This document shows positions 325 to 26,458 of a stretch of DNA of 26,458 nucleotides, piece by piece. Under the pieces are notes generated by a model. It ran no database searches. It was not told the DNA's origin and saw only the letters and a program-made list of their open reading frames with translations. Where the stretch lies: positions 1 through 26,458 of the IMG/VR virus record IMGVR_UViG_3300024239_000235. One strand, written 5' to 3'. Every line of letters begins with the position of its first letter. Position 1 is the stretch's first letter. The translations under genes were made by a program, and so were the position numbers. Source of the DNA: a virus.

Positions 325-352
325 AAGTAAAATATAAATTTAAAGGAAATTA

Positions 353-1989: not shown

Positions 1990-2009
1990 ATTATTCTCCT
2001 TTTTAAAAA

Positions 2010-2017: not shown

Positions 2018-2021
2018 ATAT

Positions 2022-2050
2022 AAATTTAAAGAATTTTTTGAACTTAAATA
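2022..2050 (+). repeat. 29-bp intergenic repeat, left copy flanking the metalloprotease gene
   Basis: Identical over 29 bases to 2852-2880. The core TTTTTTGAACTTAAAT (2034-2049) recurs elsewhere in both orientations. This copy lies between two divergent late-type promoters. Confidence 0.85.
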
Positions 2051-2066
2051 ACTGTTTTTATGTTGT

Positions 2067-2074
2067 TATAAATA
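2067..2074 (+). promoter_or_regulatory. Late-type promoter (TATAAATA)
   Basis: TATAAATA ends 17 bases before the chosen start at 2092, the same spacing as at other late-type genes here. Its position also argues that translation starts at 2092 and not at the upstream in-frame ATG at 2038. Confidence 0.65.
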
Positions 2075-2091
2075 ATTCAAAAAGGAATAAA

Positions 2092-2859
2092 ATGACATTT
2101 AGAGAATGGTTAAATAAAAAGGAAACTACAAAAATAATAGAAGAAATAAAAGATCAAACAAATGAAGAATTTTGGGAAGAAATAGATGAATTCACAAGAA
2201 AATCAGCTATTCTAAATAATCATGTTCCTTGTGGAGCAACATTAGAATGGGTTAAAGAAACACAAGCATTTATGAATGAAGGAATCATAAAACCTGAATT
2301 AATTTCAATAAATACACATGATGAAAGTAAATTAAACTCAGAATTTAAGAAATATAATATAAATTTTATAAAAGATAACAAAAATCTAAATGCACATTAT
2401 GATAAAAAGACAGATACTATAACTATTATGTATTCAGAAAGAGACACATTTAACGAGATTGAAGCAATGATTGGACATGAGATGGTTCATAAAGAACAAC
2501 ATAAAAAATCCAATGAATATTTTAAACAATCAGAAAGAACTATAGAAAAAATAAATGATCTTATCCAAAAGAAAATAAAACTTCTAAAAGAACATGGAGG
2601 GATTTTAAAGCATTCAAATGAATTAAATAAATTAAATTTAGAAATAAATAAAATTTATAATTATTTTTTATATTCTACACCTTATGAAAAAATGGCTTAT
2701 GCATATCAATTTGTATATATGAATAAAAACATGAATCCAAATGATATAATAAATAAATTAAAAAATGATGTAGAAACAAAAGACTTTCCGATAACTTCAG
2801 ATTTTAAAAAATATATTGCAATGTATTGGTTATTAAGAAATAAGAAAATAGAAATTTAA
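2092..2859 (+). CDS. HExxH metalloprotease with capsid-targeting-like N-terminus
   Basis: 255 aa. The start is placed at 2092, not at the in-frame ATG at 2038, because AAAGGAA precedes it and because the N-terminus MTFREWLNKKE then lines up with three other proteins here. H129-E130-M131-V132-H133 is a zinc-metalloprotease HExxH motif. P197-Y-E199-K-M-A fits the third-ligand glutamate of gluzincins (inference). The protein is a clear paralogue of the one at 25155-25856: both share HYDK/YYDK before the motif, HKEQHK after it, and a C-terminus with KKYIAMYWL. No signal peptide or membrane segment. Flanked by a perfect 29-bp direct repeat, and its stop lies inside the right copy. Possible roles are a packaged protease injected into the host or a head-maturation factor. 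Confidence 0.75.
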   Translation: MTFREWLNKKETTKIIEEIKDQTNEEFWEEIDEFTRKSAILNNHVPCGATLEWVKETQAFMNEGIIKPELISINTHDESKLNSEFKKYNINFIKDNKNLNAHYDKKTDTITIMYSERDTFNEIEAMIGHEMVHKEQHKKSNEYFKQSERTIEKINDLIQKKIKLLKEHGGILKHSNELNKLNLEINKIYNYFLYSTPYEKMAYAYQFVYMNKNMNPNDIINKLKNDVETKDFPITSDFKKYIAMYWLLRNKKIEI

Positions 2860-2880
2860 AGAATTTTTTGAACTTAAATA
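2852..2880 (+). repeat. 29-bp intergenic repeat, right copy flanking the metalloprotease gene
   Basis: Perfect copy of 2022-2050, 830 bases away in the same orientation. It contains the stop codon of the metalloprotease gene (2857-2859). Confidence 0.85.
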
Positions 2881-2908
2881 TTTTGCTTATTTAGAAGTAA
2901 ATATTTGA

Positions 2909-2932
2909 AATTAATATTCTTTAGTATATAAT
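2909..2932 (+). promoter_or_regulatory. Middle-type promoter upstream of uvsW
   Basis: AATTAA (2909-2914), 12 bases, then TATAAT (2927-2932) with a TTTAG run just before it. Variant of the CTTTAA-N12-TATAAT class found nine times here. Confidence 0.7.
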
Positions 2933-2954
2933 AAAAGAAAAAAAAGGATATTAT

Positions 2955-4640
2955 TTGATAATACAAAAACAAGATGAATCTTATACTTTACTTATTTCTG
3001 AAAATGATTCAGATAAATTAACTCTTCAAGGTGTTCATGATTTTCTTAAAGCCGAAAAACCTGACGCAAGATACAATTTTAAAGTTCAAAGGGGCTGGGA
3101 AAGTCCCTTTCATTATTTTTCAGAAGTTAAAAAACACGGTAACCAATCTGTTCTAAGATTACTATCAGGGCACTTAGACTTAATAAAAAACTTTAATATT
3201 CCAAATTTACCAAAAACACAATCAGAATTTACAGAAAAAGAAATAGATTCAAGTTTAAAAGAAATTATTTCAATGATGCCTTTTGAGCCTTATGACTATC
3301 AGTTAAAAATTGTAAAAGATTCTTTATTAAATCCTAAACAAATGTCGTTAGCTTGTACCTCTGCAGGTAAATCTTGTGCGATATTTATGATAATGTATTT
3401 TTTATATACAAAAAATAAAGTTGGTTTAGTTTGTGTTCCAAATATATCATTAACAACACAAATATACGGTGATTTTAAAGATTATTTTCATAAAGATTAT
3501 GCTAAAGAAAGAGATAAATTTTTATCCAATATTCAATTACAGGGTGGGGGAAAAGAAAGTACATTTGATACATTTTTAACAATAACAACATGGCAATCTT
3601 TATTAAATAGAAAAGAACATCTTTCAAAATTTGAATTTATTTTATGTGATGAAGTTCAAAGATATGCTAGTGATGAAGTATCACAAATTATTAAATTAAC
3701 TAATAATGCAAAATACAAATGGGGTGTTACAGGAACCTTACCAGAAGACCCTTTAGCAACAATGAACTTAATTGGTATGTTTGGATTCCCAAAAAGATAT
3801 ATTAGAGCATGTGAATTAATTGAAAGAGGTCTAGGTACACCAGTTGAAATAATTTCATTTATCATTAAATACACTGATGAAGAAAAAAGATTATTTAATT
3901 CATTACCTAAGGGTCAATATGCTAAACAATTAGCATTTATAAAAGAACACCAAAAAAGAAATGAATTTGTAACAGATTTAATAATTAAGGTTAAAAATAC
4001 GGGTAACACGATTATTTTAGGTAGCCACACACAGCACATTAAAGATACTTTTATTGAAGTTATGAAAAAATTATATCCTGATGTTGAAGTTCAAAATAAA
4101 GATATAACAGGTAAAAAATCATTTGAATTTCAAAAACAATATGGTGTTTATTTTATTAATGGCGAAGATAATGCAGAAACAAGGGAATTAACAAGAAAAA
4201 TTCTTGAAGAAAAACATTATATTTTTGAATTTGAAGATTCAAATCATATAACTTTAAGTGAAAATGAATTTTATAAAGATACATTAGTTAAAGATTTAAT
4301 AGATAATTATTCTATATATAAAGAGATAAAAAGCATAAATTTAAGAAACGAAATTTTAATTTCAAATTATCAAATTTTATCGGCAGGAGTAAATATACGA
4401 AGGCTATTTAACTTAATTTTTATCAGCCCATTGAAAGCTTATACTACAATTACGCAAAGTATTGGAAGAGGTTTAAGATTACATCCAGATAAAAAAATAT
4501 TTAGAGTATTTGATTTAACAGATGATTTTGGAATCAGAAAACCAGGTGGAATTTTTTATAAGCAATATGAGGAAAGAAAAAGACATTCATATAATTCTGA
4601 AGGTTATCCAATAACTGAAAAAGAATTTAATTTATTTTAA
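2955..4640 (+). CDS. uvsW: UvsW-type superfamily 2 DNA/RNA helicase
   Basis: 561 aa starting at TTG, chosen because AAAAAGGA lies 7 bases upstream and no closer ATG fits. SF2 motifs in order: YDYQ near 113-116, Walker A CTSAGKS at 134-140, DEVQ Walker B at 232-235, VTGTL motif III at 258-262, and QSIGRGLRLHP motif VI near the C-terminus. The motif I wording and the LIGMFG stretch after motif III match T4 UvsW. UvsW unwinds branched recombination intermediates and R-loops, and in T4 helps switch from origin-dependent to recombination-dependent replication. About 60 residues longer than T4 UvsW, mostly before motif I and in the C-terminal half. Own promoter at 2909 and terminator at 4639. Confidence 0.9.
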   Translation: MIIQKQDESYTLLISENDSDKLTLQGVHDFLKAEKPDARYNFKVQRGWESPFHYFSEVKKHGNQSVLRLLSGHLDLIKNFNIPNLPKTQSEFTEKEIDSSLKEIISMMPFEPYDYQLKIVKDSLLNPKQMSLACTSAGKSCAIFMIMYFLYTKNKVGLVCVPNISLTTQIYGDFKDYFHKDYAKERDKFLSNIQLQGGGKESTFDTFLTITTWQSLLNRKEHLSKFEFILCDEVQRYASDEVSQIIKLTNNAKYKWGVTGTLPEDPLATMNLIGMFGFPKRYIRACELIERGLGTPVEIISFIIKYTDEEKRLFNSLPKGQYAKQLAFIKEHQKRNEFVTDLIIKVKNTGNTIILGSHTQHIKDTFIEVMKKLYPDVEVQNKDITGKKSFEFQKQYGVYFINGEDNAETRELTRKILEEKHYIFEFEDSNHITLSENEFYKDTLVKDLIDNYSIYKEIKSINLRNEILISNYQILSAGVNIRRLFNLIFISPLKAYTTITQSIGRGLRLHPDKKIFRVFDLTDDFGIRKPGGIFYKQYEERKRHSYNSEGYPITEKEFNLF

Positions 4641-4667
4641 AGCTAGATAGAAATATCTAGCTTTTTT
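4639..4667 (+). terminator. Rho-independent terminator after uvsW
   Basis: 11-bp stem AAAGCTAGATA (4639-4649), loop GAAA, second arm 4654-4664, then T tract. Same stem as the nrdB terminator. Confidence 0.92.
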
Positions 4668-4690
4668 AGTCTAGAAGAACTTTAATACTT

Positions 4691-4714
4691 CTTTAATATT
4701 CTTTTGTATATAAT
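4691..4714 (+). promoter_or_regulatory. Middle-type promoter
   Basis: CTTTAA (4691-4696), 12 bases, TATAAT (4709-4714) preceded by TTTTGTA. Drives the small-gene run that starts at 4739. Confidence 0.8.
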
Positions 4715-4738
4715 AAAATAAAAAATTAAGGATATTAA

Positions 4739-5110
4739 ATGGCTACAAGAAGCGCAATTTGGTACAAAGATGAAGAAAATAAATGCTATAAAGGCATTTA
4801 TTGTCACTGGGATGGTTATCTTTCATATGTTGGTAAAATTCTTTTAGAAAATTATTACACTTTAGATAAAGTTAAAGAATTAATTTCTTATGGTTCTGCC
4901 TCATCTATTGCGGAAACATTAGATAAATGTGAATTTTATAAAGACTTAAATAGAGAAGATATAACAATTTATGAAATTCAAAACTTAAAAGAAATAGATG
5001 AGTACTTAGAAGAATATACATATATTTTTGAAAATGAAAAATGGTTCATCTTAACAGGAAAAAATAAAATGAAAAGATTAACACCAAGATTAATTGAAAT
5101 GGACATATAA
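4739..5110 (+). CDS. Conserved phage hypothetical protein (MATRS / YCHWDGY family)
   Basis: 123 aa with a clear AAGGA site. The N-terminus MATRSAIWYKDEENKCYKG and the motif YCHWDGYLSYVGKILLENYY match a conserved family of unknown function found widely in phages (recognised from memory; no name). No catalytic motif can be assigned. It is the first gene after the promoter at 4691, and its stop overlaps the next start by one base (TAATG), so translation is probably coupled. Confidence 0.8.
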   Translation: MATRSAIWYKDEENKCYKGIYCHWDGYLSYVGKILLENYYTLDKVKELISYGSASSIAETLDKCEFYKDLNREDITIYEIQNLKEIDEYLEEYTYIFENEKWFILTGKNKMKRLTPRLIEMDI

Positions 5111-5340
5111 TGAACAAAAATACTATAAAAGAAATTGAATCTGCTTTAAAATTACATATTAACTACACTGGATATTCTTCGGGAGGTGAATATTTAAGAA
5201 GAATGGATAGATTAGCTTGGAATTATTCAGGTGCGCCAGCACTAAAGGTTTCTGCATTACTAGATGATTATTTTAAAGTTGTTAATGCCAATAATTTAGA
5301 TGAAGCAATTCAAAGATTAAAGGCTTTAGAGAATGCTTAA
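5110..5340 (+). CDS. Small hypothetical protein
   Basis: 76 aa, not recognised. Mixed helical protein with YSSGGEYLRRMDRLAWNYSG in its first half and a C-terminal helix (LDEAIQRLKALENA). Start overlaps the preceding stop by one base and its own end overlaps the next small frame, consistent with a translationally coupled operon. Confidence 0.72.
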   Translation: MNKNTIKEIESALKLHINYTGYSSGGEYLRRMDRLAWNYSGAPALKVSALLDDYFKVVNANNLDEAIQRLKALENA

Positions 5341-5506
5341 TCTTATAAAAGAACACAATAATAAACAAAAATTAAATTTTTTCTTTAAAGAAAAAATAGA
5401 TTTAAAACAATCTAAATTAGATTTTGAAAAATTATCAGATGAAGAAAAAATTTTTGGTTTAAAAATGCTAAAAGTGCAAATGATTTTAGACGGGAAGGAA
5501 AAATAA
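5333..5506 (+). CDS. Small lysine-rich hypothetical protein
   Basis: 57-aa frame (MLNLIKEHNNKQK...) that starts inside the end of the previous gene (8-base overlap) and stops exactly one base before the ATG at 5507. It fills a gap that would otherwise be empty in a tightly packed operon, and its KEKIDLKQSKLDFEKLSDEE region looks like an amphipathic helix. Its end supplies the GGAAGGA site used by the next gene. Not recognised. Confidence 0.6.
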   Translation: MLNLIKEHNNKQKLNFFFKEKIDLKQSKLDFEKLSDEEKIFGLKMLKVQMILDGKEK

Positions 5507-6034
5507 ATGAATTTGTTACAATTACACGGTTTAATTAAAAAACACGGATTTATTGCTGGTGGGGCTTGTAGAAGCACAATTCAGGATGAAGAAATAAAAG
5601 ATTTTGATATATTTTGTTTTTCTAAAGAAGATTATGAACCTTTAAAACAAATTATTTCAAATATGTACGGAATAAAAAGAGAAAATGAACTTGTTTATCA
5701 ATGTAATAATATTCAACTAATAAAACCACGAGAAAATAAGTACTTAAAGACTTATGGAACTCCTTATGAAGTTGTTAGTAAATTTGATTTTTCTGTGTGT
5801 AGAGTTTATACATTAGATGGAATTAATTTTATTAAAATAGATGAACAATTTGAGAATGATTGCCAAAAGAAAATTTTAAGAATTCAGAATATAGTTTGCC
5901 CAATTAGCACTTTAAAGAGAAGTATTAAGTACAGTAAAAAAGGGTATTTCTCACCTCTTAGAGAAATTCTTAAACTTTTTAATGAATATGCAGAAAGAGT
6001 TAGAAACGGAGATATAGATATTGATTCATTTTGA
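5507..6034 (+). CDS. Nucleotidyltransferase-fold protein, possibly truncated by an in-frame TGA
   Basis: 175 aa, ATG after GGAAGGA. Residues 14-36 contain GFIAGGACR followed by D32-F-D34-IF, the GG...R...DxD signature of Pol-beta/CCA-adding-type nucleotidyltransferases. A further acidic strand (KFDFSVCRVY) could complete the metal site. Substrate unknown; phages carry such proteins with unclear roles. Oddity: the frame stops at a TGA (6032-6034) but continues open for 20 protein-like codons to a TAA at 6095-6097, right before the next promoter. The original C-terminus therefore probably lay there. Confidence 0.65.
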   Translation: MNLLQLHGLIKKHGFIAGGACRSTIQDEEIKDFDIFCFSKEDYEPLKQIISNMYGIKRENELVYQCNNIQLIKPRENKYLKTYGTPYEVVSKFDFSVCRVYTLDGINFIKIDEQFENDCQKKILRIQNIVCPISTLKRSIKYSKKGYFSPLREILKLFNEYAERVRNGDIDIDSF

Positions 6035-6097
6035 ATTTCATCTAAATTCCCAAATGAAGAACTATATGAATTAATGCTAAAATATAATATAGATTAA
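6032..6097 (+). other. In-frame continuation after TGA (readthrough or recent nonsense mutation)
   Basis: After the TGA at 6032 the same frame encodes ISSKFPNEELYELMLKYNID and then TAA, six bases before the middle-type promoter at 6103. Composition is normal for a protein C-terminus. Either the TGA is a recent mutation, a sequencing error, or it is read through. TGA is used as an ordinary stop elsewhere in this window (for example 6616-6618). Confidence 0.5.
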
Positions 6098-6102
6098 TTA
6101 AA

Positions 6103-6126
6103 CTTTAATATTAGTTTGTATATAAT
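6103..6126 (+). promoter_or_regulatory. Middle-type promoter
   Basis: CTTTAA (6103-6108), 12 bases, TATAAT (6121-6126), with TTTGTA just before the -10. Confidence 0.8.
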
Positions 6127-6152
6127 AAATTATATAAATTAAAAGGTACTAT

Positions 6153-6389
6153 ATGAAAGATATAACATTAAATAACATATCAATTGAAAATTTTATTGAG
6201 TTGTGTACTTTTTTAAACTGCAAAACACTATTAGATGATATTGAGATGTATTATAATAAATATTTATTGTGTGATTCTTCTAAATATTATTTAGGATTTT
6301 ATTTACCAACTAAAGAATATTTATTAAAAGATATAGGAACTATCAATATGTGTAATTCACTGAATTACAAGAATATAATAAAGGAATAA
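6153..6389 (+). CDS. Small hypothetical protein
   Basis: 78 aa, AAAAGG ribosome site. First gene after the promoter at 6103. Not recognised; contains several Cys (C18, C23 region) and many Tyr/Leu, no motif that indicates function. One base separates it from the next ATG. Confidence 0.65.
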   Translation: MKDITLNNISIENFIELCTFLNCKTLLDDIEMYYNKYLLCDSSKYYLGFYLPTKEYLLKDIGTINMCNSLNYKNIIKE

Positions 6390-6390
6390 A

Positions 6391-6618
6391 ATGAACATAC
6401 AAGATGAAATTAACAACTTAAAAGAAAATATAAATGAAATAGAAAAACAAAAAGCAAAATTAGATTTTTATAATTCATTAATCCAAGCAGTTAAATGTGC
6501 TGGAGGAACTGGAGAAAATATCACTGAAGATATGACGGTGAAGGAATTAGCTGATATTTTTGCAATCAATAAAGTTAGATTTACTTATATTGGCGAATTA
6601 AAAAGAACTGTAAAATGA
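6391..6618 (+). CDS. Small coiled-coil hypothetical protein
   Basis: 75 aa. Residues 1-27 (IQDEINNLKENINEIEKQKA) form a likely coiled coil. The second half, GGTGENITEDMTVKELADIF, resembles a short domain found in small phage proteins of unknown role. Start follows AAAGGA. Ends in TGA, showing TGA acts as a stop here. Confidence 0.68.
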   Translation: MNIQDEINNLKENINEIEKQKAKLDFYNSLIQAVKCAGGTGENITEDMTVKELADIFAINKVRFTYIGELKRTVK

Positions 6619-6666
6619 TCAATTTGCATTTAAAAACTCTGTGTTTTAGTAAAATAAAGGATAAAA

Positions 6667-7608
6667 ATGAAAAGTACAGAATTAATAGAAATTGAAGCAT
6701 TTGAACAAGATACTGGGTTATATTATGTTGAATTACCAAATGGAATTTATGAAGTAAATAGTGAAAGAACAGAAATTTCGTATTCAAATAATAAAGTTAT
6801 TGTTGAACTAGAAAAAGACTTAAATATTTTTAAAATTAATAAATATACTATTGTTGATAATTATATTTATGAAAATGAATCTATTACAAAAGAAGCATAT
6901 GATGCAAAAGTAACAGAACTTAGACTTAAAGGTTATGATGATGATTTGGAATCTTGGTATGATATTGATTCAGAATATGAATATAAAAAATTCACACAAA
7001 AATGGAAACCTGAATATATTTCGACAGAAGTAAAACAACCAGTAAATTTCAATATTAAACATAGTATCTCAAGTCTTCCTAAATATATTGAACCAATGAG
7101 AAAATTAAATGGCGATTTGAAAAGTACAATTTATGTTTATAATCAACGTAAGCATATAGCAGATATTGTTAGAGAATTTCTTTTAAATATTGGATATACT
7201 GAAGCAAAAAGTGAATATACATCTGAAAATGAATTTTATATTACCCCTGATGGAATTAGATTTTCAAAATTTGGAAAAAGTAGAGATTTTATAACAATTA
7301 AAATGAATCTTCAAAAATATGAAGATAAAGGAATTTATAAAGATACTTACCAAAATGTATTTGATTTGTATAATAAGAATATTAAAGAAATTACAGAAAT
7401 TTTAACAATTTGGTATTTAAAAGATACAAAAATTGAAATTTCAACATATCTAGAATTAATTTCTAAATTAGAAAAATTTAAAAATGATGTTAATGCATTA
7501 GGGGTTTTATCAAAATTTAGTCCAAATAAAAATCAGTTAGTTATTAATATTAATAAATATATTAAAAAATTAAAATCTGAATTACTACAAAATGAAAAAT
7601 ATATCTAA
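6667..7608 (+). CDS. Hypothetical protein, 313 aa
   Basis: Largest unknown gene of this run. Start after AAAGGA. Soluble, charged, rich in Tyr, Asp and Lys; no signal peptide or membrane span. An N-terminal beta-rich part (ELPNGIYEVNSERTEISYS) is followed by a helical C-terminus (residues ~230-313). No catalytic motif seen. It overlaps the HAD gene by 17 bases, so the two are co-translated. Confidence 0.75.
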   Translation: MKSTELIEIEAFEQDTGLYYVELPNGIYEVNSERTEISYSNNKVIVELEKDLNIFKINKYTIVDNYIYENESITKEAYDAKVTELRLKGYDDDLESWYDIDSEYEYKKFTQKWKPEYISTEVKQPVNFNIKHSISSLPKYIEPMRKLNGDLKSTIYVYNQRKHIADIVREFLLNIGYTEAKSEYTSENEFYITPDGIRFSKFGKSRDFITIKMNLQKYEDKGIYKDTYQNVFDLYNKNIKEITEILTIWYLKDTKIEISTYLELISKLEKFKNDVNALGVLSKFSPNKNQLVININKYIKKLKSELLQNEKYI

Positions 7609-8050
7609 AATAGCATTATTTCTAGATATTGATGGTGTTCTAAATCAATATAATATAGATTCAAGAAAGTACAAATTAAAGAAGCACCAAGACTATAATA
7701 TGAAACCATATAAAAAGAAAATTTTAAAATTGACAAAATTAATTAAAAGGTACAATATTCACGTATATATCTTTTCTGCTTGGAGACAAAAAGAACTAGA
7801 AGAATATTTACCTTTTAAAATTTATGGTGACACTAGAAAATGGGCAGAAAATGTTATAGAAATTTCAAAAGAATATAAACACAATTTAATTATTGATGAT
7901 GAAATTCAATACAAAACAAGAATTTTTGGTCATGAAAGAATTCCTTTGCCTGAAAATATAATTCTTCACAAACCATATTATGAATTTGGATTAATAAATA
8001 AAGATTTTAGAAAATTAGAACATATTCTAGAGAATTTAATTAAGCTTTAA
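7592..8050 (+). CDS. HAD-fold phosphatase (HAD_SAK-like)
   Basis: 152 aa. HAD motifs: IALFLDIDGVLN (nucleophile Asp and acid Asp, motif I), YIFSAWRQ (Ser, motif II) and NLIIDDE (motif III acids). The layout LDIDGVLN...FSAWR resembles the small HAD domains seen in phages and in RNA-repair-associated proteins; a nucleotide or polynucleotide 5'/3' phosphatase role is possible but not shown. The gene starts inside its upstream neighbour, and its stop is part of the promoter hexamer for the next gene. Confidence 0.78.
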   Translation: MKNISKIALFLDIDGVLNQYNIDSRKYKLKKHQDYNMKPYKKKILKLTKLIKRYNIHVYIFSAWRQKELEEYLPFKIYGDTRKWAENVIEISKEYKHNLIIDDEIQYKTRIFGHERIPLPENIILHKPYYEFGLINKDFRKLEHILENLIKL

Positions 8051-8068
8051 TATTCTTTTGTATATAAT
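8045..8068 (+). promoter_or_regulatory. Middle-type promoter
   Basis: CTTTAA (8045-8050), 12 bases, TATAAT (8063-8068). Preceded by G, giving GCTTTA, the core of the T4 MotA box. It overlaps the stop of the HAD gene. Confidence 0.82.
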
Positions 8069-8096
8069 TATAATATATAAATTAAAGGATTATAAA

Positions 8097-8609
8097 ATGA
8101 ATAAATCATTAAAAACAGTTAAAGTTCAAATTCCCACTTATGAAGATGCTTGTAAATCTGATTATCTTGATTTTGGTACTATTTTTAGCACAAGTGATAT
8201 AATAAAAAATTATTTTTTAGATTTAAACTTAAAAAAGCAAGAGCTATTCAATGATTATAAAGAATATAAAGAATTTTTAAATGCTAATAAATTAAAATTA
8301 AGTCTAAATGAAATTTCAGTTGAAAATTATGTTGGAGAAGAATTTATAATTATTAAAAAAATAAAAGATAAATATAAATTAGATATTGAAAAATTGATAA
8401 AAATTTATTTTAATGAACCTTTAAAAAATTCTTATGAATATAATTTATCAAGAAATATTAAACAAAATTTTATTAAAATATCATCAGTATTACATTCTTC
8501 AAATGGTGAATCAAGAATTGAAACTAATTATTTAGTATATGAAGAAAATAAATTTGAACTAACTATTAGCGATATTTATATAAATGAAATATCTTATATA
8601 GAACTATAA
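8097..8609 (+). CDS. Hypothetical protein, 170 aa
   Basis: Start placed at 8097 (AAAGGA upstream), not at the in-frame ATG at 8058, which lies inside the -10 region of the promoter. Not recognised. Begins MNKSLKTVKVQIPTYEDAC; lysine- and leucine-rich helices in the middle, beta-rich end. No motif that points to a function. Confidence 0.72.
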   Translation: MNKSLKTVKVQIPTYEDACKSDYLDFGTIFSTSDIIKNYFLDLNLKKQELFNDYKEYKEFLNANKLKLSLNEISVENYVGEEFIIIKKIKDKYKLDIEKLIKIYFNEPLKNSYEYNLSRNIKQNFIKISSVLHSSNGESRIETNYLVYEENKFELTISDIYINEISYIEL

Positions 8610-8620
8610 AAGGAATTAAA

Positions 8621-9034
8621 ATGAAATATAAAAAAGATGTAAAAACAGTTTTAAATTTTAGAACAAAAGAACAATATAGATGTAATGTTTTAAAATTGAA
8701 TAGAGGTTGTGAAACTGAGTATAGTTTTGGTCATTGGAAATGCGGATATATTTATGTTTCGATCATTAATTACAAATATATTGATTCGTCTAAATTAAAT
8801 GTTCACGGTGGAACAACCTATGAAAGTTATTCGGGTGACAAAAAATATATTGTGTTTGGTTTTGATTGTGCACATTATGATGATTCACCAATATATATTC
8901 CTAGACCAAGAAGTACAGGGTATTGTAAAAATGAATTGATTCATTTATCAAAACAAATTAACAAAATGATTTTATCTGGAAGAAAAAGAATGATTAAAAA
9001 TAAAATTAAATTAATTAAAGAACTTATAAAATGA
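8621..9034 (+). CDS. Conserved phage hypothetical protein (GHWKCGYIYV / FGFDCAHYDD family)
   Basis: 137 aa. The pattern WxxGYIYVSI ... VHGGTTYESYSG ... YIVFGFDCAHYDDSP followed by a C-terminal helix matches a family of unknown function that recurs in phages of many hosts (from memory). The conserved His, Cys and Asp residues (HGG, DCAH, DD) could bind metal, but this is not shown. AAAGGA site. Overlaps the next gene at ATGA. Confidence 0.78.
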   Translation: MKYKKDVKTVLNFRTKEQYRCNVLKLNRGCETEYSFGHWKCGYIYVSIINYKYIDSSKLNVHGGTTYESYSGDKKYIVFGFDCAHYDDSPIYIPRPRSTGYCKNELIHLSKQINKMILSGRKRMIKNKIKLIKELIK

Positions 9035-9639
9035 ATTATAAAATATGCTTAAGACATTCTGGGCCAAATGATAATTGCTTTTTATTTTGGGGACCAAATA
9101 ATTCTGGGTACACAAGATGTATTGAAGATGCTGGTTTATATGAAGATTCAGATGTTGATTATAAAACTCAAATTAAAAGAGGTGATTTTTTAGTCCCTGA
9201 AGAATTTGTAAAAGAACATATGAAAGAAGTTAGATTGCCGGTGTATGGTGATCACAAAGAAGAATATTCAGGTAGAAATATTTTTAATGCATTACCAAAT
9301 ACAGGAGACATTAGAAAATTATTAGGAATTAATATTTTAAATTTTCATTTAGATGGAAATAGAAATAGTTTTAATGCTTATTTTAAAAGTATAATTAAAG
9401 AAGTACTTAAAACAAAATTTTGTAAAGATTTGTTTCATATTCAAGGTAAAAAGGAATATTTTGATGAATGGTACTATGTTGAATGCACGGTTGAAGCTAA
9501 AAATAGAAATCAAGCTATTGAAAAAGCTAGACATGAATTATTTTTAGATGAATATTCTTACATTGAAATCAAGAAAATGGTTTCTTGTAAAAAACTAAAA
9601 GAAACATATTTTCATAAATGGGCAAAAATCAAAAATTAA
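9031..9639 (+). CDS. Hypothetical protein, 202 aa
   Basis: The N-terminal part FLFWGPNNSGYTRCIEDAGLYE resembles a short conserved phage motif (WGPNxxGYT...AGxY) often found in small unknown phage proteins. Residues ~150-170 (WYYVECTVEAKNRNQAIEKA) resemble a beta-hairpin plus helix. No assigned function. Start overlaps the previous stop (ATGA). Last gene of the run before the promoter at 9642. Confidence 0.72.
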   Translation: MNYKICLRHSGPNDNCFLFWGPNNSGYTRCIEDAGLYEDSDVDYKTQIKRGDFLVPEEFVKEHMKEVRLPVYGDHKEEYSGRNIFNALPNTGDIRKLLGINILNFHLDGNRNSFNAYFKSIIKEVLKTKFCKDLFHIQGKKEYFDEWYYVECTVEAKNRNQAIEKARHELFLDEYSYIEIKKMVSCKKLKETYFHKWAKIKN

Positions 9640-9641
9640 GA

Positions 9642-9665
9642 AATTAATACACTTTAGTATATAAT
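9642..9665 (+). promoter_or_regulatory. Middle-type promoter
   Basis: AATTAA (9642-9647), 12 bases, TATAAT (9660-9665) preceded by TTTAGTA. Confidence 0.7.
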
Positions 9666-9689
9666 AAAATAAACATAAAGGAGACTTTC

Positions 9690-10026: not shown

Positions 10027-10719
10027 ATGTCATTTAGAGAATGGTTAAAAGAAAAAGAAATGACAGAACGAAATATATTAATAAGTTTTCAAAATTTTTT
10101 TGTTGAATCAGACGAAACAGCTGCTCTTAATGAATCAGTTATTACTAAAATTAAGAAGATTTTTCTATTAAAAGATGCAGATTCAATTGTAAAAAATTTC
10201 AAAGATATTTTTAGCATTAAAGATGATATTAAAATTTCAAAAATTAATATTGGTGGTGCAAATCTTGATACACTAGAAATAACATATAGTTCATTGAGCA
10301 CATTAATTCATGAATTAATTCATTATTTGCAATTAAGAGCAGGTGTATTAAAAGATATATACTCATATCCAGAATATACTAATTGTGGAATATTAAGATA
10401 TATGTTACAACCTTTAGAATTAAATAATTGGGCTATTTCACTGGCTTGTGAATCTCTTCAGTATAACTCTTTTGATGATTTTTTGAAAATATCCGAGGAA
10501 TTACCAATAGATAAATTTGAAAATGCTAACAAAACAGATAGATTAAAACATTGTTTACATCTATTAACACATAATATGAATTGTGACAAAAAATATAATA
10601 TTAGAAAGCAATATAAAGAAAAATTATTAAAATTGGCAAAACAATATTCATTAGTAATAAAATCGCTAAATAAAGACATAACAGAACATTATGTTAAAGA
10701 AATTGTAGATATATTATGA
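10027..10719 (+). CDS. HExxH metalloprotease-like protein with capsid-targeting-like N-terminus
   Basis: 230 aa. Start taken at 10027, one base after the previous stop, so the N-terminus MSFREWLKEKEMTE aligns with those of 2092, 22880 and 25155. H95-E96-L97-I98-H99 is an HExxH motif (STLIHELIHYLQ), and PLE121LNNWA supplies a plausible third zinc ligand at gluzincin-like distance. Outside these motifs it does not look like the other two HExxH proteins, so it is a distant relative or an independent protease with the same tag. M12-T-E14 could be a prohead-protease cleavage site. Unlike the other two, it lies in a run driven by a middle-type promoter and has no TATAAATA just upstream. Confidence 0.7.
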   Translation: MSFREWLKEKEMTERNILISFQNFFVESDETAALNESVITKIKKIFLLKDADSIVKNFKDIFSIKDDIKISKINIGGANLDTLEITYSSLSTLIHELIHYLQLRAGVLKDIYSYPEYTNCGILRYMLQPLELNNWAISLACESLQYNSFDDFLKISEELPIDKFENANKTDRLKHCLHLLTHNMNCDKKYNIRKQYKEKLLKLAKQYSLVIKSLNKDITEHYVKEIVDIL

Positions 10720-16780: not shown

Positions 16781-18103
16781 TTGAAATTAACGGAAGATCA
16801 ACAAAGAATACACGATGATATTATAAAAAATATTCATCAAATTGTCCCAAAATACACAAAGTACAAGAAAAATGAAAGAATGTTCAGCATAGAAGGTTCC
16901 GCGGGAATGGGTAAAAGTGTTTTAACTGCATTTTTGGTAAAAAGTCTTTCCGCAGATTTTAAAATTAGAGTAAGTACACCAACTCATAAATCTTTGGGTG
17001 TTCTTTCTGAAATGCTTTCGAAACAAAAATCATTCGATATACAAAAAACTACAATTCACAGTTACTTAAAACTAAAACCAAAAGAAGATTTTAATAATGG
17101 TACATTAGTACTTGAAATAATACCTGACTCAAAAATTGAAAAAGTAGATATTTTATTTATTGATGAAGCTTCAATGGTTGGTAAAAGTCTTTATAAATTT
17201 ATAGATGATGCACTAGAAAGAGGCTATATTAAGTGCATTATTTGGATTAGTGATAAGCACCAACTTAATCCAGTTCTAGATGAAATAAATCCAATTTATG
17301 ATATGAATATTAGAAAATATTCTTTAACAAAAATAATTAGACAAGCTGAAGGTAACCCAATTATCGAATTAGCAACAAAATTTAGAAAATGCATTGAACA
17401 CGATATTTATCCAAATAATAATACAATTTTAAATGCAATAAAAGAAACGTCTGAAAAATTCTCTGAAATCGAATTATATAGCAGTAGTGAATCTTTTATG
17501 AATAGATATTTTAGTACAAAATATAATTTTTATGATAATTCATTAATTTCTTATACAAATAATAATATAAATTATTTGAATAAAACAATTAGAAATATAT
17601 TAATTCCAAATTCAGAGAATTATGTTCCTGGGGAGCATTTAGTATTTAATGCTGCTCACGCCCAAAATGATACAATTGTTCACAATAATAATGAAGTTAT
17701 CGAAATAAAAGAATTATCTAAAGAATATTCACATGAACATGGTTTTTATTATTGGAATATAACAGACACAGAAGATAAATCATTTAAAGCGGTTGATATA
17801 GATGATTGGAATATATTTGATTCAGAAGTTAAAAAATTGGCTAGTGCTGCATCAAGCGCAACTGATAAGGCATCTAAAAGAGAACTTTGGGGAAGATATT
17901 TTGATTTAAAAAATGAATTTCAGAAAGTATCATATACTTATGCTTGCACAATTCATAAAGCTCAAGGTAGTTCAGTTAATGAAATTTTTATTAATTTAAA
18001 AGAATTATTTTATTACAGAGAACACATAGGAAATATTGATTTTTTAAAATTACTTTACGTAGCTATAACAAGAACAAAATATAATTGCATATTTTTAATT
18101 TAA
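16781..18103 (+). CDS. dda: Dda-type 5'-3' DNA helicase (superfamily 1)
   Basis: 440 aa, almost exactly the length of T4 Dda (439 aa). Starts at TTG after GAAAGGA. SF1 motifs: QQRIHDDII (Q motif), Walker A GSAGMGKS near residue 38-45, VDILFIDEASMVGKS (Walker B), WISDKHQLNPV (motif III), TYACTIHKAQGSSVNE (motif V) and LLYVAITRTKYN (motif VI). In T4, Dda acts at replication origins and displaces proteins ahead of the fork. The preceding hairpin and the following middle-type promoter frame it as its own unit. Confidence 0.92.
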   Translation: MKLTEDQQRIHDDIIKNIHQIVPKYTKYKKNERMFSIEGSAGMGKSVLTAFLVKSLSADFKIRVSTPTHKSLGVLSEMLSKQKSFDIQKTTIHSYLKLKPKEDFNNGTLVLEIIPDSKIEKVDILFIDEASMVGKSLYKFIDDALERGYIKCIIWISDKHQLNPVLDEINPIYDMNIRKYSLTKIIRQAEGNPIIELATKFRKCIEHDIYPNNNTILNAIKETSEKFSEIELYSSSESFMNRYFSTKYNFYDNSLISYTNNNINYLNKTIRNILIPNSENYVPGEHLVFNAAHAQNDTIVHNNNEVIEIKELSKEYSHEHGFYYWNITDTEDKSFKAVDIDDWNIFDSEVKKLASAASSATDKASKRELWGRYFDLKNEFQKVSYTYACTIHKAQGSSVNEIFINLKELFYYREHIGNIDFLKLLYVAITRTKYNCIFLI

Positions 18104-18127
18104 CTTTAATATTCTTTAGTATATAAT
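18104..18127 (+). promoter_or_regulatory. Middle-type promoter
   Basis: CTTTAA (18104-18109) starts one base after the dda stop; 12 bases; TATAAT (18122-18127) preceded by TTTAGTA. Confidence 0.82.
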
Positions 18128-18156
18128 ACTATTAATAAAACAAAAAGGATATTAAA

Positions 18157-20150: not shown

Positions 20151-20182
20151 AAGCTAGGTACTTAATTGTATCTAGCTTTTTT
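20151..20182 (+). terminator. Rho-independent terminator after hsp20
   Basis: Stem AAGCTAGGTAC (20151-20161) with one G-U pair, loop TTAATT, arm 20168-20178, then T6. Variant of the common stem. Confidence 0.9.
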
Positions 20183-20196
20183 AGTTTAGAAGACAA

Positions 20197-20212
20197 ATTT
20201 AAGTTCAAAAAA
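20197..20212 (-). repeat. Copy of the intergenic element, minus orientation
   Basis: Reverse complement of TTTTTTGAACTTAAAT, located between the hsp20 terminator and the uvdE promoter. Confidence 0.75.
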
Positions 20213-20240
20213 TCTTTTAAATTTTAAAGATTTAATTTAT

Positions 20241-20264
20241 CTTTAAATATTTTTAGTATATAAT
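20241..20264 (+). promoter_or_regulatory. Middle-type promoter upstream of uvdE
   Basis: CTTTAA (20241-20246), 12 bases, TATAAT (20259-20264) preceded by TTTTAGTA. Confidence 0.82.
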
Positions 20265-20291
20265 ACTTTAATTTAAAAATTAAGGATATTT

Positions 20292-21225: not shown

Positions 21226-21264
21226 GAGTATTCTAAGATTTAAGTTCAAAAAATATTTTAAATT
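21198..21264 (+). repeat. 67-bp terminator-plus-element module, copy 1
   Basis: Matches 24002-24068 at 66 of 67 positions by direct reading (difference at 21226). It contains the terminator and a minus-oriented intergenic element core at 21238-21253. Both copies sit at convergent gene ends. Confidence 0.88.
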
Positions 21265-21996: not shown

Positions 21997-22019
21997 TAGC
22001 ATGTTTGAATTTTAAAAGA

Positions 22020-22034
22020 TTTTTTGAACTTAAA
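22020..22034 (+). repeat. Copy of the intergenic element, plus orientation
   Basis: TTTTTTGAACTTAAA between a minus-strand late-type promoter and a plus-strand middle-type promoter. Confidence 0.72.
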
Positions 22035-22038
22035 CAAA

Positions 22039-22088: not shown

Positions 22089-22388
22089 ATGAATTCAAAT
22101 ATTGAAATTTATGGGTCTGATGCTGATGGTAATAGAAGTGTTGTAATAAAAAATTATATATTAAGTGCCTTTAACGAAGATGAAATTATTGAGCAATTAT
22201 ACCCAGAATTTTTAGACGGTTTCACAACAGGTAAAAGAATTGTGTTTATTCACAATGAAAAATCTGATTCTGAATTAGAAATTGAAGTTCACATTGAAGA
22301 TTATTTTAAAGAACTTTTAGAAATGGCTAAATCAGATGAAGCTTTGGAAAATGATTTAGAAATTCAAGAATGGTTAAATTCTCTTTAG
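22089..22388 (+). CDS. Small acidic hypothetical protein
   Basis: 99 aa, AAAGGA site, strongly acidic C-terminal helix (EMAKSDEALENDLEIQEWL). Beta-rich first half. Not recognised; monocistronic-looking, with its own promoter and another promoter right after it. Confidence 0.7.
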   Translation: MNSNIEIYGSDADGNRSVVIKNYILSAFNEDEIIEQLYPEFLDGFTTGKRIVFIHNEKSDSELEIEVHIEDYFKELLEMAKSDEALENDLEIQEWLNSL

Positions 22389-22400
22389 AATTTAATTTTT

Positions 22401-22424
22401 CTTTAATCATTTTTAATATATAAT
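22401..22424 (+). promoter_or_regulatory. Middle-type promoter
   Basis: CTTTAA (22401-22406), 12 bases, TATAAT (22419-22424). Confidence 0.78.
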
Positions 22425-22451
22425 TATAATATATAAATTAAAGGATATAAA

Positions 22452-22640
22452 ATGAAAAAAGCAGAATTAGAGAATTTATTAAACGATATTATATCAAAAA
22501 TAAAAACACCTGATTATGAAGTTAAAAAAATTGTTTTAGGATTAAATTACGCAATTAATAATTTTGATAATTTATCGAAACTACATAAAAAACGATTACC
22601 TGAATTAATAGAAGAAGCAAAAGCTTTAACAAATATATAA
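22452..22640 (+). CDS. Small helical hypothetical protein
   Basis: 62 aa, AAAGGA site. Entirely helical by appearance (KKAELENLLNDIISKI ... LPELIEEAKALT). No function. Its stop codon is embedded in the TATAAATA late-type promoter of the next gene. Confidence 0.66.
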   Translation: MKKAELENLLNDIISKIKTPDYEVKKIVLGLNYAINNFDNLSKLHKKRLPELIEEAKALTNI

Positions 22641-22879: not shown

Positions 22880-23548
22880 ATGTATAATATGATAACATTT
22901 AAAGAATGGCTAAAAGAAAAGGAAATGGAATTACAAGAGTATAAAGATTTTGCCAAAATGAATGAAGTATTTGAATATATCGCGGATTATAAAAGGGTTG
23001 ATTCATCTGAATATATAAGTTATAGAGAAAAACAACTAAAAATGAATGATCCAAATTTTTTAAAATTGGCTGGGAATTTAGAAGAGAAGAGAAAAAGAGA
23101 GCACGGACCAAGAGTTCATTATTATAAATATATGAACTTTTTAATATATTATGGAAAGTTTAAATATTCAAATAAGTATGAAATACATTTTGTTGATACA
23201 ACAAATTTAGATCCAAACATAATAGATGGTAATGGTAATTATAGTAAAATTTTTAGTGCAGTTATGAGTATTTTAAAAAACAAACACTTTGATGCAAACA
23301 GAGTTGATAACATTTATATTGTAAATAACAACACAAAAAAGATTAATTTCTATGAAGTGCTTATTAAAAATATATTAAAAAAATATAAAATAGATGATTG
23401 GTTTGTTCTTAATGATAGAAGAGGTTTAGTTATTTCCAAAAATAATAAAATAATAACTGAAAGAGACGAACTTGTTTCAAAGTGTTTATTATCTCAAGAA
23501 GATAAAGAACTTTTAGATAGATTAGATGAAAACAATAATTATATATGA
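22880..23548 (+). CDS. Unknown protein with capsid-targeting-like N-terminus
   Basis: 222 aa from the ATG at 22880 (GGAAG seven bases upstream); an alternative start at 22889 gives MITFKEWLKEKE, which aligns best with the tagged proteins at 2092, 10027 and 25155. L-Q-E follows shortly after, a possible prohead-protease site. The body is not recognised and has no HExxH. It includes EIHFVDTTNLDPN, VDNIYIVNNNTK and a basic, soluble C-terminal half. Co-transcribed with the small Cys protein from a late-type promoter, which fits a packaged head protein. Confidence 0.7.
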   Translation: MYNMITFKEWLKEKEMELQEYKDFAKMNEVFEYIADYKRVDSSEYISYREKQLKMNDPNFLKLAGNLEEKRKREHGPRVHYYKYMNFLIYYGKFKYSNKYEIHFVDTTNLDPNIIDGNGNYSKIFSAVMSILKNKHFDANRVDNIYIVNNNTKKINFYEVLIKNILKKYKIDDWFVLNDRRGLVISKNNKIITERDELVSKCLLSQEDKELLDRLDENNNYI

Positions 23549-24030: not shown

Positions 24031-24068
24031 AGTATTCTAAGATTTAAGTTCAAAAAATATTTTAAATT
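24002..24068 (+). repeat. 67-bp terminator-plus-element module, copy 2
   Basis: Near-identical to 21198-21264. It contains a minus-oriented element core at 24042-24057 and again separates convergent genes. Confidence 0.88.
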
Positions 24069-24081: not shown

Positions 24082-25089
24082 CTACAAAATTGTAAATATT
24101 TTTGTTTTTGATGTATAATTCCCATTTTCATCTGTTATTTTTAGCAGAACTTCAATATCTCCAGCAGCATTTGCATTTAGAACAGCTTTATCTTTATTTC
24201 CATCGATACTAGCATCACCACTTAAAATATTCCATTCAAAAGTCAATTCTCTTATTGTACTATCAATATCTTCCCAAATTGCTAAAATTTCATTTGGCCC
24301 AACTTGCACATTATCACCAACTATTTCAATAATTTTTGGATGTGTATCAACCATATCAACAATAAATGTTTCAGGGTCAGTAACTTCATTATCGATAACT
24401 TCACCAGAGAATACAATCTTTTTAGAATGCTCTGTACTGATATCAACTGGTTTATCTGGTGTTGTACTAATAATCATTTTAAAATCTTTAATTCTTTCAA
24501 TACTTCTAATTGGTGGGTAAATATTGCCTTTTATTGATATTCCACAAGAAACAGTAACAATATTATTTGAAATTTCTTCATAATCTTCTGTACTAATTCC
24601 AATATCTAATAATGAAACCGGAATTCTAGTTGGTTCATCTAAATTTACTGCATCATAAACATCAATATTTACAATTGGATTAAATTTTGAAGCAATTTGT
24701 TCAATAATCATTGTGGCTTCATTCATACCTCTACAAATAATTGCTAATTCAAACATAAATTCATAAGGAACTGAATTATAAAGAAATTCAAAATTATTTT
24801 CATTTGCTTTAGTATTTACTTTTACGTGTTTATTTGTTGTTCTTTGTTCAGATTTAACCATTGCACTCCAAAGCAAATTTGCTCTAGGAAGAACATTAAA
24901 ATTACCTGATAAAATTTGTTCTGTTGTGTGTTCATCTAAAATTTTTGATTTTTCTCTACTTGAAAATCTAACAGGTATATTTCTACTTGTTATTTCCCCT
25001 GCAGAATTTTTATATTGTACTTCTAAATCATTAAATAAATTTAAAATTGCTCCCACATATGTTCTTATTGTTCCGTGATGATAAAACAT
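24082..25089 (-). CDS. gp15-like tail sheath stabiliser with C-terminal Ig/PKD-like extension
   Basis: 335 aa, AAGGA site. Residues 1-195 follow T4 gp15: FYHHGTIRTYVGAILNLFND, IPVRFSSREK, LPRANLLW, VPYEFMFELAIICRGMNEAT, IIEQIASKFNPIVNIDVYD and a final YPPI at 191-194. gp15 caps the tail tube and sheath and links tail to head. T4 gp15 is 272 aa; here residues ~250-335 add a domain ending SKTKIFTIL with NILSGDASIDGNKDKAVLNA, which looks like an Ig/PKD-type beta sandwich. Minus strand, late-type promoter. Confidence 0.75.
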   Translation of the reverse strand: MFYHHGTIRTYVGAILNLFNDLEVQYKNSAGEITSRNIPVRFSSREKSKILDEHTTEQILSGNFNVLPRANLLWSAMVKSEQRTTNKHVKVNTKANENNFEFLYNSVPYEFMFELAIICRGMNEATMIIEQIASKFNPIVNIDVYDAVNLDEPTRIPVSLLDIGISTEDYEEISNNIVTVSCGISIKGNIYPPIRSIERIKDFKMIISTTPDKPVDISTEHSKKIVFSGEVIDNEVTDPETFIVDMVDTHPKIIEIVGDNVQVGPNEILAIWEDIDSTIRELTFEWNILSGDASIDGNKDKAVLNANAAGDIEVLLKITDENGNYTSKTKIFTIL

Positions 25090-25160
25090 TTTTAGTCCTT
25101 TTTAAAATTATTTATACCCAAAAGAATTTAAAGAATTTAAAGAATTTTTTGAACTTAAAT
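25087..25160 (+). repeat. ~74-bp direct repeat, left copy flanking the second metalloprotease gene
   Basis: Matches 25854-25926 except for one T indel and one A/T change. It carries, for the minus strand, the start codon, AAGGA site and late-type promoter of the gp15-like gene, and on its right side the element core TTTTTTGAACTTAAAT (25145-25160). Confidence 0.9.
25109..25116 (-). promoter_or_regulatory. Late-type promoter (TATAAATA) of the gp15-like gene
   Basis: Minus-strand TATAAATA, 19 bases before the ATG at 25089, inside the long repeat. Confidence 0.65.
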
Positions 25161-25856
25161 TTTATCTCTAATTAACCAATACATCGCAATATATTTTTTA
25201 GTTATATTATTTAGTGGTATTTTATCATCTTCTAAATGTTTAAAAATTTCTTTGGGGCTTGAATCTTTGTAATTTTTAACAAATTGGCAAGCATAAGCCA
25301 TACTTTCATATGGTGAAAGATATTTGAACTCGTCAAGTAATGCTAATCTTTCTTTATTTTTATTCCAAGCAATAGAAGGATTTTTTGGATTAGTCATATC
25401 TAGTGAACTTATTTCTTTTCCTAATGCATTTATTTTTTTAATCATTATCTCTGATTGTTTAAAATAGTTTTCTCCTGCTCTTTTATGCTGTTCTTTGTGA
25501 ACAAGTTCGTGTGCAACCATAGCTTCTATAGAATTATTATCTACTTTTTTATCATCAAAGAATATATGAACTTCATCTTTTTGCTTATCATAGTATCCGC
25601 TTAACTCATTTGTTGCATAATGAAATATAATATTTTGATTTTTAAATTCAGAATTTAATTCGTCTATGTTTTTAGTTTTTATCTTTATTTTTTCTGGAAG
25701 AATAATAGCTTCTTTCAATGGGATTATACCATAAGCCATTTCTAAAAATTCAGGTGAAATATATGCTTTATCTATTTTTCTTTCTATTTCTTTCAATTCT
25801 ATTTCATAAAATTCGGTTATTTCTTTTGTTTTTAACCAATCTTTAAAATTTATCAT
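25155..25856 (-). CDS. HExxH metalloprotease with capsid-targeting-like N-terminus (paralogue of 2092-2859)
   Basis: 233 aa, AAGGA site. N-terminus MINFKDWLKTKEITE carries the shared tag, and I13-T-E15 fits the (I/L)xE prohead-protease site. H116-E117-L118-V119-H120 is the HExxH motif; SPYE184SMAYA provides a likely third zinc ligand. Paralogous to 2092-2859 along its length (LNSEFK, EAMVAHELVHKEQHK, YFKQSE, KKYIAMYWL). No signal peptide. It sits on the minus strand between two copies of a ~73-bp repeat, and its stop codon lies in the left copy. Probably a late, possibly packaged, protease; target unknown. Confidence 0.75.
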   Translation of the reverse strand: MINFKDWLKTKEITEFYEIELKEIERKIDKAYISPEFLEMAYGIIPLKEAIILPEKIKIKTKNIDELNSEFKNQNIIFHYATNELSGYYDKQKDEVHIFFDDKKVDNNSIEAMVAHELVHKEQHKRAGENYFKQSEIMIKKINALGKEISSLDMTNPKNPSIAWNKNKERLALLDEFKYLSPYESMAYACQFVKNYKDSSPKEIFKHLEDDKIPLNNITKKYIAMYWLIRDKI

Positions 25857-25926
25857 TTTAGTCCTTTTTAAAATTATTTATACCCAAAAGATTTTAAAGA
25901 ATTTAAAGAATTTTTTGAACTTAAAT
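25854..25926 (+). repeat. ~73-bp direct repeat, right copy flanking the second metalloprotease gene
   Basis: Near-identical to 25087-25160, 767 bases away in the same orientation. Its element core is at 25911-25926, and it lies between divergent late-type promoters. Confidence 0.9.
25875..25882 (-). promoter_or_regulatory. Late-type promoter (TATAAATA) of the metalloprotease gene
   Basis: Minus-strand TATAAATA, 18 bases before the ATG at 25856. Confidence 0.65.
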
Positions 25927-25938: not shown

Positions 25939-25946
25939 TATAAATA
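25939..25946 (+). promoter_or_regulatory. Late-type promoter (TATAAATA)
   Basis: TATAAATA 17 bases before the ATG at 25964, divergent from the promoter at 25875. Confidence 0.6.
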
Positions 25947-25963: not shown

Positions 25964-26110
25964 ATGAACATATATGAAGCAGTTCTGAAAAGAAAAGAAG
26001 AACTTTTTGAAAAACATAATCTTGATATAAGAATAAAAAAATCTAAAATTTATGATTTTAAAAATAGCAAAAAAGATAATCCTTGTTGTGAACTGCTCCC
26101 TCATTTATGA
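25964..26110 (+). pseudogene. 5' part of a late gene interrupted by a tnpB element
   Basis: ATG after a strong AAAAGGAG site and a late-type promoter. The frame gives MNIYEAVLKRKEELFEKHNL and a basic stretch, then runs at about 26088-26095 into the terminal hairpin of the mobile element, where it stops (TGA 26108-26110; last residues ELLPHL come from the element). The genuine part is about 42 residues, helical and lysine-rich, not recognised. The rest of the gene should lie beyond the other end of the element, outside this window. Confidence 0.6.
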
Positions 26111-26260
26111 GGGAGCTTCCTAATTAAAATTTTCTATTGAAAATTAGCAAAAGGCTATCCGGGCAGTCCCTGCCCTTAAATCTCTAGAGTTAAGCTCTAG
26201 CTATTATATTTAAACAAGCATTTAAATCTCTATCTATAATATTGTCACATTCTGAACAAT
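26090..26260 (-). ncRNA. Candidate omega RNA (reRNA) of TnpB
   Basis: TnpB systems are known to make an RNA covering the 3' end of tnpB and the right end, with a guide at its 3' end from flanking DNA. Here hairpins at 26084-26100 region of the +200 block (26184-26189/26195-26200), 26161-26165/26171-26175, 26128-26134/26139-26145 and 26095-26103/26108-26116 form a structured stretch downstream of the tnpB stop. The guide would be read from minus-strand sequence just below ~26090. Ends are approximate. Confidence 0.5.
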
Positions 26261-26458
26261 TGAATGTTCTATCTTTAAGAGTTAAATCTTGTTTTATTGT
26301 TCCACATTTAGAACAAGTTTTGCTTGTGAAAGCAGGATTAACTGAACTAATATGGATTCCAAACTGCACACTTTTCCATATTAGTATTCCATACATCAGT
26401 CCTGGAGACAATGCTAAAATATTTTTCCTCATTGTTTTAGAACCTTTAGTTCCTAAAT
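26190..26458 (-). CDS. tnpB: TnpB RNA-guided nuclease, C-terminal part (partial)
   Basis: Open from the window edge to TAA at 26190-26192; about 88 C-terminal residues. The stretch ALSPGLMYGILIWKS precedes VNPAFTSKTCSKCG, then NCSECDNIIDRDLNACLNI. This is the OrfB zinc ribbon (CxxC...CxxC) inserted before the last RuvC motif, whose catalytic Asp is in DRDLNA. Both zinc pairs and the Asp are present, so this end looks intact. TnpB cuts DNA next to a short target motif using an omega RNA. The ATG at 26430 is internal and is not taken as the start. Confidence 0.88.
   Translation of the reverse strand, partial: LGTKGSKTMRKNILALSPGLMYGILIWKSVQFGIHISSVNPAFTSKTCSKCGTIKQDLTLKDRTFNCSECDNIIDRDLNACLNIIARA

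Follow-up and report, generated by a model that had tools for sequence, protein, structure and literature searches.

The locus and its repeated leader

The window, the whole 26,458-nt stretch of DNA analysed here, is a 26-kb virus fragment derived from a metagenome and belonging to an uncultured T4-like phage, and its repeat locus is known from one contig in a single assembly. Two genes follow each other on the minus strand, a probable zinc metalloprotease gene (25856-25155) and then a gene for a T4 gp15-like tail sheath stabiliser (25089-24082), and a common leader precedes both. The identity of the gp15-like gene is solid (Pfam T4-gp15_tss, E=1.6e-34; phrog_227), as the first-pass annotation had proposed. 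Beyond the protease gene lies a divergent late-type gene with its ATG at 25964 and a TATAAATA box on the plus strand at 25939-25946. This small gene (25964-26458) seems to be interrupted by a fragment of an IS200/605 TnpB gene (26190-26432, minus strand), and 26115-26215 is 89% identical to a stretch of the relative G001 described below.

The common leader forms the best repeat pair within the window. Copy 1 (25087-25160, 74 nt, minus strand) holds the leader of gp15 and the 3′ end of the protease gene with its stop codon, and copy 2 (25854-25926, 73 nt, minus strand) is the leader of the protease gene. Alignment confirms the positions of the two near-identical repeats first noticed by eye and the differences between them, namely one A/T substitution and one indel, where copy 1 reads CAT-TTTT-AGTCC and copy 2 reads CAT-TTT-AGTCC. 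Without gaps, 25090-25160 and 25856-25926 agree at 70 of 71 positions. The shared sequence can be written as ATTTAAGTTCAAAAAATTCTTTAAATTCTTTAAA(A/T)TCTTTTGGG-TATAAATA-ATTTTAAAAAGGACTAAAA(A)TG. Each copy was said to supply the minus strand with a promoter, a ribosome site, a start codon and the core of a repeated element, and all of these are located in both: the TATAAATA late-type promoter and the AAGGA Shine-Dalgarno (SD) sequence lie at 25109-25116 and 25096-25100 for gp15 and at 25875-25882 and 25862-25866 for the protease gene, each followed by ATG, while the core occupies 25137-25160 and 25903-25926 on the plus strand, the latter between divergent late promoters. The TATAAATA...AGG...ATG pattern occurs nine times in the window as against zero to two times in shuffled sequences. 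The late-type promoter class is thus real as a sequence pattern, and its boxes are presumably used in transcription. Searches found no further occurrence of the exact leader sequence in IMG/VR, and neither tRNAs nor Rfam families in the window.

Copy 1 contains, at its far end, the stop codon of the protease gene (25155-25157). The distance from one copy to the next (766/767 bp) is therefore precisely the length of a single gene with its leader, and a crossover between the copies would excise the protease gene without remnant while gp15 retained a complete leader.

The probable protease genes

The gene at 25155-25856 encodes a protein of 233 amino acids with the motif HELVHKEQH and an invariant Glu in YExMAYA. 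A test for zinc ligands, HExxH plus a third ligand, found H116, E117, H120 and E184 invariant in five homologues that share 40 invariant columns. This pattern upholds the label of metalloprotease gene given earlier, whereas the Pfam match (M76, E=3.7e-4) is sub-threshold and no fold match is significant, and the product is best called a probable metalloprotease. Its structure model is mediocre (pLDDT 68), and the best-placed, non-significant fold matches are ZMPSTE24, BlaR1, ArdC and IrrE-like proteins (zinc proteases or zincin-like). A sequence search of the PDB gave no match, and no homologue was found among 50,697 phage GenBank records. The first protease gene of the window (2092-2859, plus strand) is 43% identical to the second and also has a capsid-targeting-like N-terminus. 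A third HExxH protein (HELIHYLQLR; 10027-10719), 23% identical to the second protease, begins with MSFREWLKEKEMTE, which is likewise capsid-targeting-like.

A dispersed core in the intergenic regions

The 24-nt core, TTAAAGAATTTTTTGAACTTAAAT, is found at eight sites of the window in both orientations, with 0.01 expected by chance. Besides the two copies at the gp15 locus, it lies downstream of gp15 after a terminator hairpin (24042-24065, minus), with a late leader of the minus strand on one side and an early promoter of the plus strand on the other (22012-22035, plus), at 21238-21261 and 20197-20220 (both minus), each time after a terminator hairpin, upstream of the first protease gene (2026-2049, plus) and at the stop codon of that gene (2856-2879, plus). 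The last two are direct repeats of each other, with 34 nt at 97%. In the window and G001 together, 25 of 29 copies with at most three mismatches are non-coding, though 86% of the sequence is coding (P=6e-18), and the one window copy scored as coding is a spurious ORF opposite a leader. The neighbours of the core are late leaders in sense or antisense orientation, early promoters or terminator hairpins.

A role of the core as an RNA hairpin or terminator is ruled out by folding against shuffled sequences: z values for the core and the leaders are 0.4, 0.5, 0.6, 0.4 and -1.0 (core 0.4), as against about -4 for the hairpins adjoining other core copies. The core is also ruled out as a required part of the late promoter. 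It lies near 16 of 35 late-leader genes, and because the other 19 have none nearby, late expression does not depend on it.

Outside the window the core occurs in other IMG/VR records, from two metagenomes. The near-identical records G007 (L078, 6480-6664) and G009 (L081, 1814-1944) carry it in a tandem array of 54-bp period with four and three units, respectively, a copy number that is uncertain in short-read assemblies. An identical 74-nt block of terminator plus core is shared by the window (20151-20224) and G010 (26560-26633), phages that are otherwise divergent, and the homology of G010 to G001 starts about 50 bp past that block. The core pattern was not found in bacterial genome contigs, which therefore provide no link to a host, and genome searches with NrdB gave distant relatives.

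Early promoters are repeated as well. Near-identical repeats of about 65 nt carrying TATATAAT lie at 4680-4740, 6082-6152, 8024-8099, 18083-18153, 20220-20290 and 22382-22457.

A related phage with a similar arrangement

G001 (IMG/VR record 3300034072_001378, 127 kb) aligns to positions 1-9667 of the window, mostly at 84-100% identity. It encodes gp23, gp22 (by resemblance and position) and a gp21-type prohead protease (Peptidase_S77, E=6e-29), whereas the window fragment does not reach the head genes. Three homologues of the protease are present in G001. The ortholog of the first window protease lies between 58-nt direct repeats of 96.6% identity that again contain the core, TATAAATA, an SD sequence and ATG. 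The second 58-nt copy leads a gene for a 441-amino-acid virion protein (phrog_1645) that is inserted after the protease gene and missing from the window. The right boundary of this insertion is not a second core copy, so that not every event can have been a simple crossover between repeats.

Identity between the window and G001 is 99.4% over 1-1900 and about 90% over 2201-2800. In the interval 2001-2200, where the leader of the first protease gene and the start of its coding sequence lie, identity drops to 70-76% among aligned bases, and about 49 gap columns come in addition. This places a mosaic breakpoint in the leader. Around the first protease gene, both window copies of the core read AAAGAATTTTTTGAACTTAAATA and both G001 copies read AAAAGATTTTTTGAACTTAATA. 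Core variants that are alike within a genome and different between genomes at orthologous positions, at a few sites here, are the pattern expected from gene conversion or unequal crossing-over. Other differences in gene content, at about 4735, 5510 and 8090 of the window, coincide with start codons or repeated early promoters or lie close to them. The gains and losses that lie at or beside several of the early promoter repeats resemble the behaviour of true PeSLs, the shuffling modules of T4-type phages discussed in the last section. Two stretches, 6101-6600 and 4901-5100, are at least 99% identical to G001 within a 90% background and are probable recombination tracts, and the first of them begins at an early promoter.

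Capsid-targeting-like N-termini

Codons 1-15 of the second protease, MINFKDWLKTKEITE (25812-25856, minus strand), encode a predicted capsid targeting sequence with an [LI]xE cleavage site. In T4, the capsid targeting sequence of the internal protein IPIII is MKTYQEFIAE, in which residues 4, 7, 8 and 10 matter for targeting and processing (PMC9026906). The second protease begins MINFKDWL, with F4, W7 and L8, as against MKTYQEFI in T4, and has ITE at residues 13-15. Seventeen ORFs in the window, G001, G007 and G010 match the motif M-x-x-F-[RK]-[ED]-[WYF]-[LVI], or 18 with a GTG-started protease of G001; one further match in these four records looks accidental and is left out of the 17. All seven protease homologues, which range down to 27% identity, carry the N-terminal motif, and two distant ones begin MKFKEFI and MRFKDYI. 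About 13 proteins unrelated to the protease also have a targeting-like N-terminus. An [LI]xE in residues 6-20 accompanies 18 of 18 targeting-type N-termini as against 40 of 139 other ORFs (29%), a count in which the 18 are not independent, as they share the motif. The second protease seems to be packed into the phage head.

In G001, the genes for two proteins whose bodies are unrelated agree at 55 of 57 nt over the SD, the ATG and the targeting codons, so the targeting segment as well moves from one gene to another. In the window, the protein of 22889-23548 begins MITFKEWLKEKEMELQE and is predicted to be head-packaged. The gene at 37064-37642 of G001 (6065-6643 of contig L048) gives a weak ART-PolyVal match, has the N-terminus MKNTFLDYVSSINE and possibly encodes an Alt-like packaged ADP-ribosyltransferase. 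In a more distant phage (L102, 1268-2362), three consecutive genes begin MKTFREF, MKFKEFI and MKNFKEF; the products of this cluster, a relative of the protease among them, are predicted to be head-packaged.

Direction of change at gp15

In gp15 relatives at 52% identity (L009, L012) and in Vibrio phage Va1, gp15 adjoins a divergent gene with no protease gene between them. A TATAAATA-type leader at gp15 is present in L009 and Va1 as well. Since these distant relatives have gp15 beside a divergent gene, and in the window a divergent late-type gene stands on the far side of the protease gene, the latter is probably the inserted partner, a newcomer beside gp15. The search of viral contigs gave only four gp15 relatives, all at 52% (two pairs of near-identical phages) and too diverged for a comparison of leaders. 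Five further core-bearing records contained no gp15, and the gp15 region is absent from G001, so that none of the relatives found is near enough to display a gp15 junction with one leader and no protease gene. An insertion of the protease gene by duplication of the leader of gp15, or the reverse, had been proposed from the sequence. Its first half, the arrival of the gene, is made likely by the protease-free relatives; a one-off duplication does not hold, as the repeat belongs to a dispersed intergenic module. Because that module is found in both orientations and beside early promoters, late promoters and terminators, it is just as possible that gene conversion made the leaders alike, or that the gene arrived with its leader attached.

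Interpretation and alternative explanations

The best explanation, to which a probability of about two in three may be given, is that the protease gene belongs to the accessory late genes and sits in a recombination-prone cassette bounded by repeated core-leader modules. The proposed unit begins with core and late promoter, continues with SD, ATG, targeting peptide and gene body, and ends at a stop codon in the next core; at this locus it stands head to tail with the gp15 leader. Because leader and core are repeated, units could be deleted, added or swapped. Homologous recombination of the phage, which in T4 operates at homologies of 6-10 bp (PMC9391042), would delete the protease gene while gp15 keeps an intact leader, and at any other core it could likewise insert or exchange such units or make them uniform. 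At gp15 itself, excision or insertion would proceed through the 73-bp copies. The product would enter the prohead and be cut by the gp21-type protease; ejection would bring it into the host, with some host protein as its presumed target soon after infection. Read directly from the DNA are the repeats, the dispersed core, the arrangement of the G001 ortholog, the mosaic breakpoints at a leader and the targeting segment on unrelated genes.

The alternative that survives best is an ancient arrangement with ongoing gene conversion, in which the protease gene has long stood beside gp15 and its flanks are kept alike in the absence of any recent insertion. The core variants around the first protease gene suggest that flanking copies are indeed homogenised, and this account is compatible with the cassette in all but timing. 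It is nevertheless unlikely, as gp15 relatives of three lineages, though distant, have no protease gene there.

Selection alone is less probable still. It would hold the leaders identical through a shared need for strong late control, with no recent duplication or recombination. Both copies are complete and plausible late leaders, and late leaders generally share TATAAATA, an A-rich spacer and an SD sequence. Among 34 late-type leaders of 70 nt each from the window and G001 (561 pairs), however, the gp15 and protease leaders rank first at 97%, as against a median of 69%, which bears out the earlier statement that the two genes have one leader in common. The remaining late leaders of these phages resemble one another only to about that median, and the identity extends over the spacer and the core, which are missing or variable in most of them. 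Moreover, the most similar pairs are physical neighbours: ranks 2 and 3 (34551/37064 and 112350/113126 of G001) also join neighbours on the same strand less than 3 kb apart, and the top three all fall among 19 neighbour pairs (P about 3e-5).

It is very unlikely that a false join at the 71-nt near-repeat placed the protease gene beside gp15. Repeats of about 71 nt can confuse short k-mer assembly and the locus rests on a single contig, but two differences between the copies make their paths separable, and for the equivalent structure in G001 two separate metagenome assemblies agree completely (L053, L072; 100% over 3869 nt). A target-site duplication left by a transposon or homing insertion, suggested by the nearby TnpB fragment and by the frequency of TnpB-type elements in related phages, is rejected, since 73 bp is far too long, IS200/605 elements, as is established, make no target duplication, there is no transposase or endonuclease gene in the unit, and the repeat has the look of a working leader, with a core dispersed over many other sites without any transposase.

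The mobile cassette therefore remains the preferred reading, and it may be extended, tentatively and with the balance tilting against it, to a plug-in loading system. An exchangeable block of core, late promoter, SD and targeting codons, recombined before and at the end of unrelated genes, would in one step make new proteins late-expressed, head-packaged and injected, the injected metalloprotease family being the main cargo. If the cassette reading is right, it would explain at the level of sequence how T4-like phages exchange the proteins that they inject together with DNA: the control region would travel between repeats as one unit with the packaging tag and the gene, and its loss would spare the leader of the neighbouring essential gene. 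The probable head-packaged metalloproteases form a family whose effect on host defences could be assayed, and the motif could be used for listing injected proteins of this phage group.

Comparison with known systems

Judged by capsid protein (69% identity) and by gp15, the closest cultured relatives are those of the Vibrio phage Va1 group, in which small proteins beside the head genes begin M(K/N)FKEYL. Unlike the window phage, Va1 has no core in its genome, which was searched for it, and no protease gene beside gp15.

The repeats of Campylobacter group II phages CP21/CP220, which are T4-related, are similarly AT-rich and short, have a common core, occur in direct and inverted orientation and enclose genes; they form tandem arrays of variable copy number (PMC4546147). 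Their units share only AACTTAAA with the core described here, and their long arrays stand between modules of 28-55 kb. No copy of the present core within three mismatches was found in 54 kb of CP21. The 13-nt core of CP21, AAACTTAAAGCAA, has no exact copy and three one-mismatch matches in G001, as against 46 within one mismatch in CP21 itself. Reading the units rules out a common origin of the two kinds of repeat.

The closest parallel for the N-termini is provided by the T4 internal proteins IPI-IPIII (PMC9026906). The T4 sequence MKTYQEFIAE|A aligns position by position with, for example, MITFREWLAE|K, and the two share aromatics at positions 4 and 7, I/L at 8 and E at 10. The internal protein genes also vary between related phages. 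Unlike the T4 proteins, most bodies are here unassigned or protease-like, and packaging and cleavage are predictions from sequence.

For the repeats the parallel is the PeSLs of T4-type phages, which are described in the account cited as small promoter-bearing intergenic repeats at which genes are shuffled (Arbiol 2010, Comeau 2014; cited in PMC4503421). As at PeSLs so described, several differences in gene content between the window and G001 fall at repeated early promoters. As to gene gain, loss or exchange between close relatives, by which PeSLs are also recognised, the mosaic breakpoint and the gene gain of G001 at the core and leader near 2000-2900 may point that way. Compared with that description, the repeat differs in sequence and has a late-type TATAAATA box in place of an early sigma-70 promoter, although other core copies adjoin early promoters; it contains no terminator stem-loop, although terminator hairpins often adjoin the core; and the cargo is a gene with a capsid-targeting-like N-terminus. 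The two missing features, early promoter and stem-loop, set this counterpart apart from the PeSLs. On the best reading, it would be a late-promoter counterpart of the T4 shuffling modules that moves genes for head-packaged proteins.
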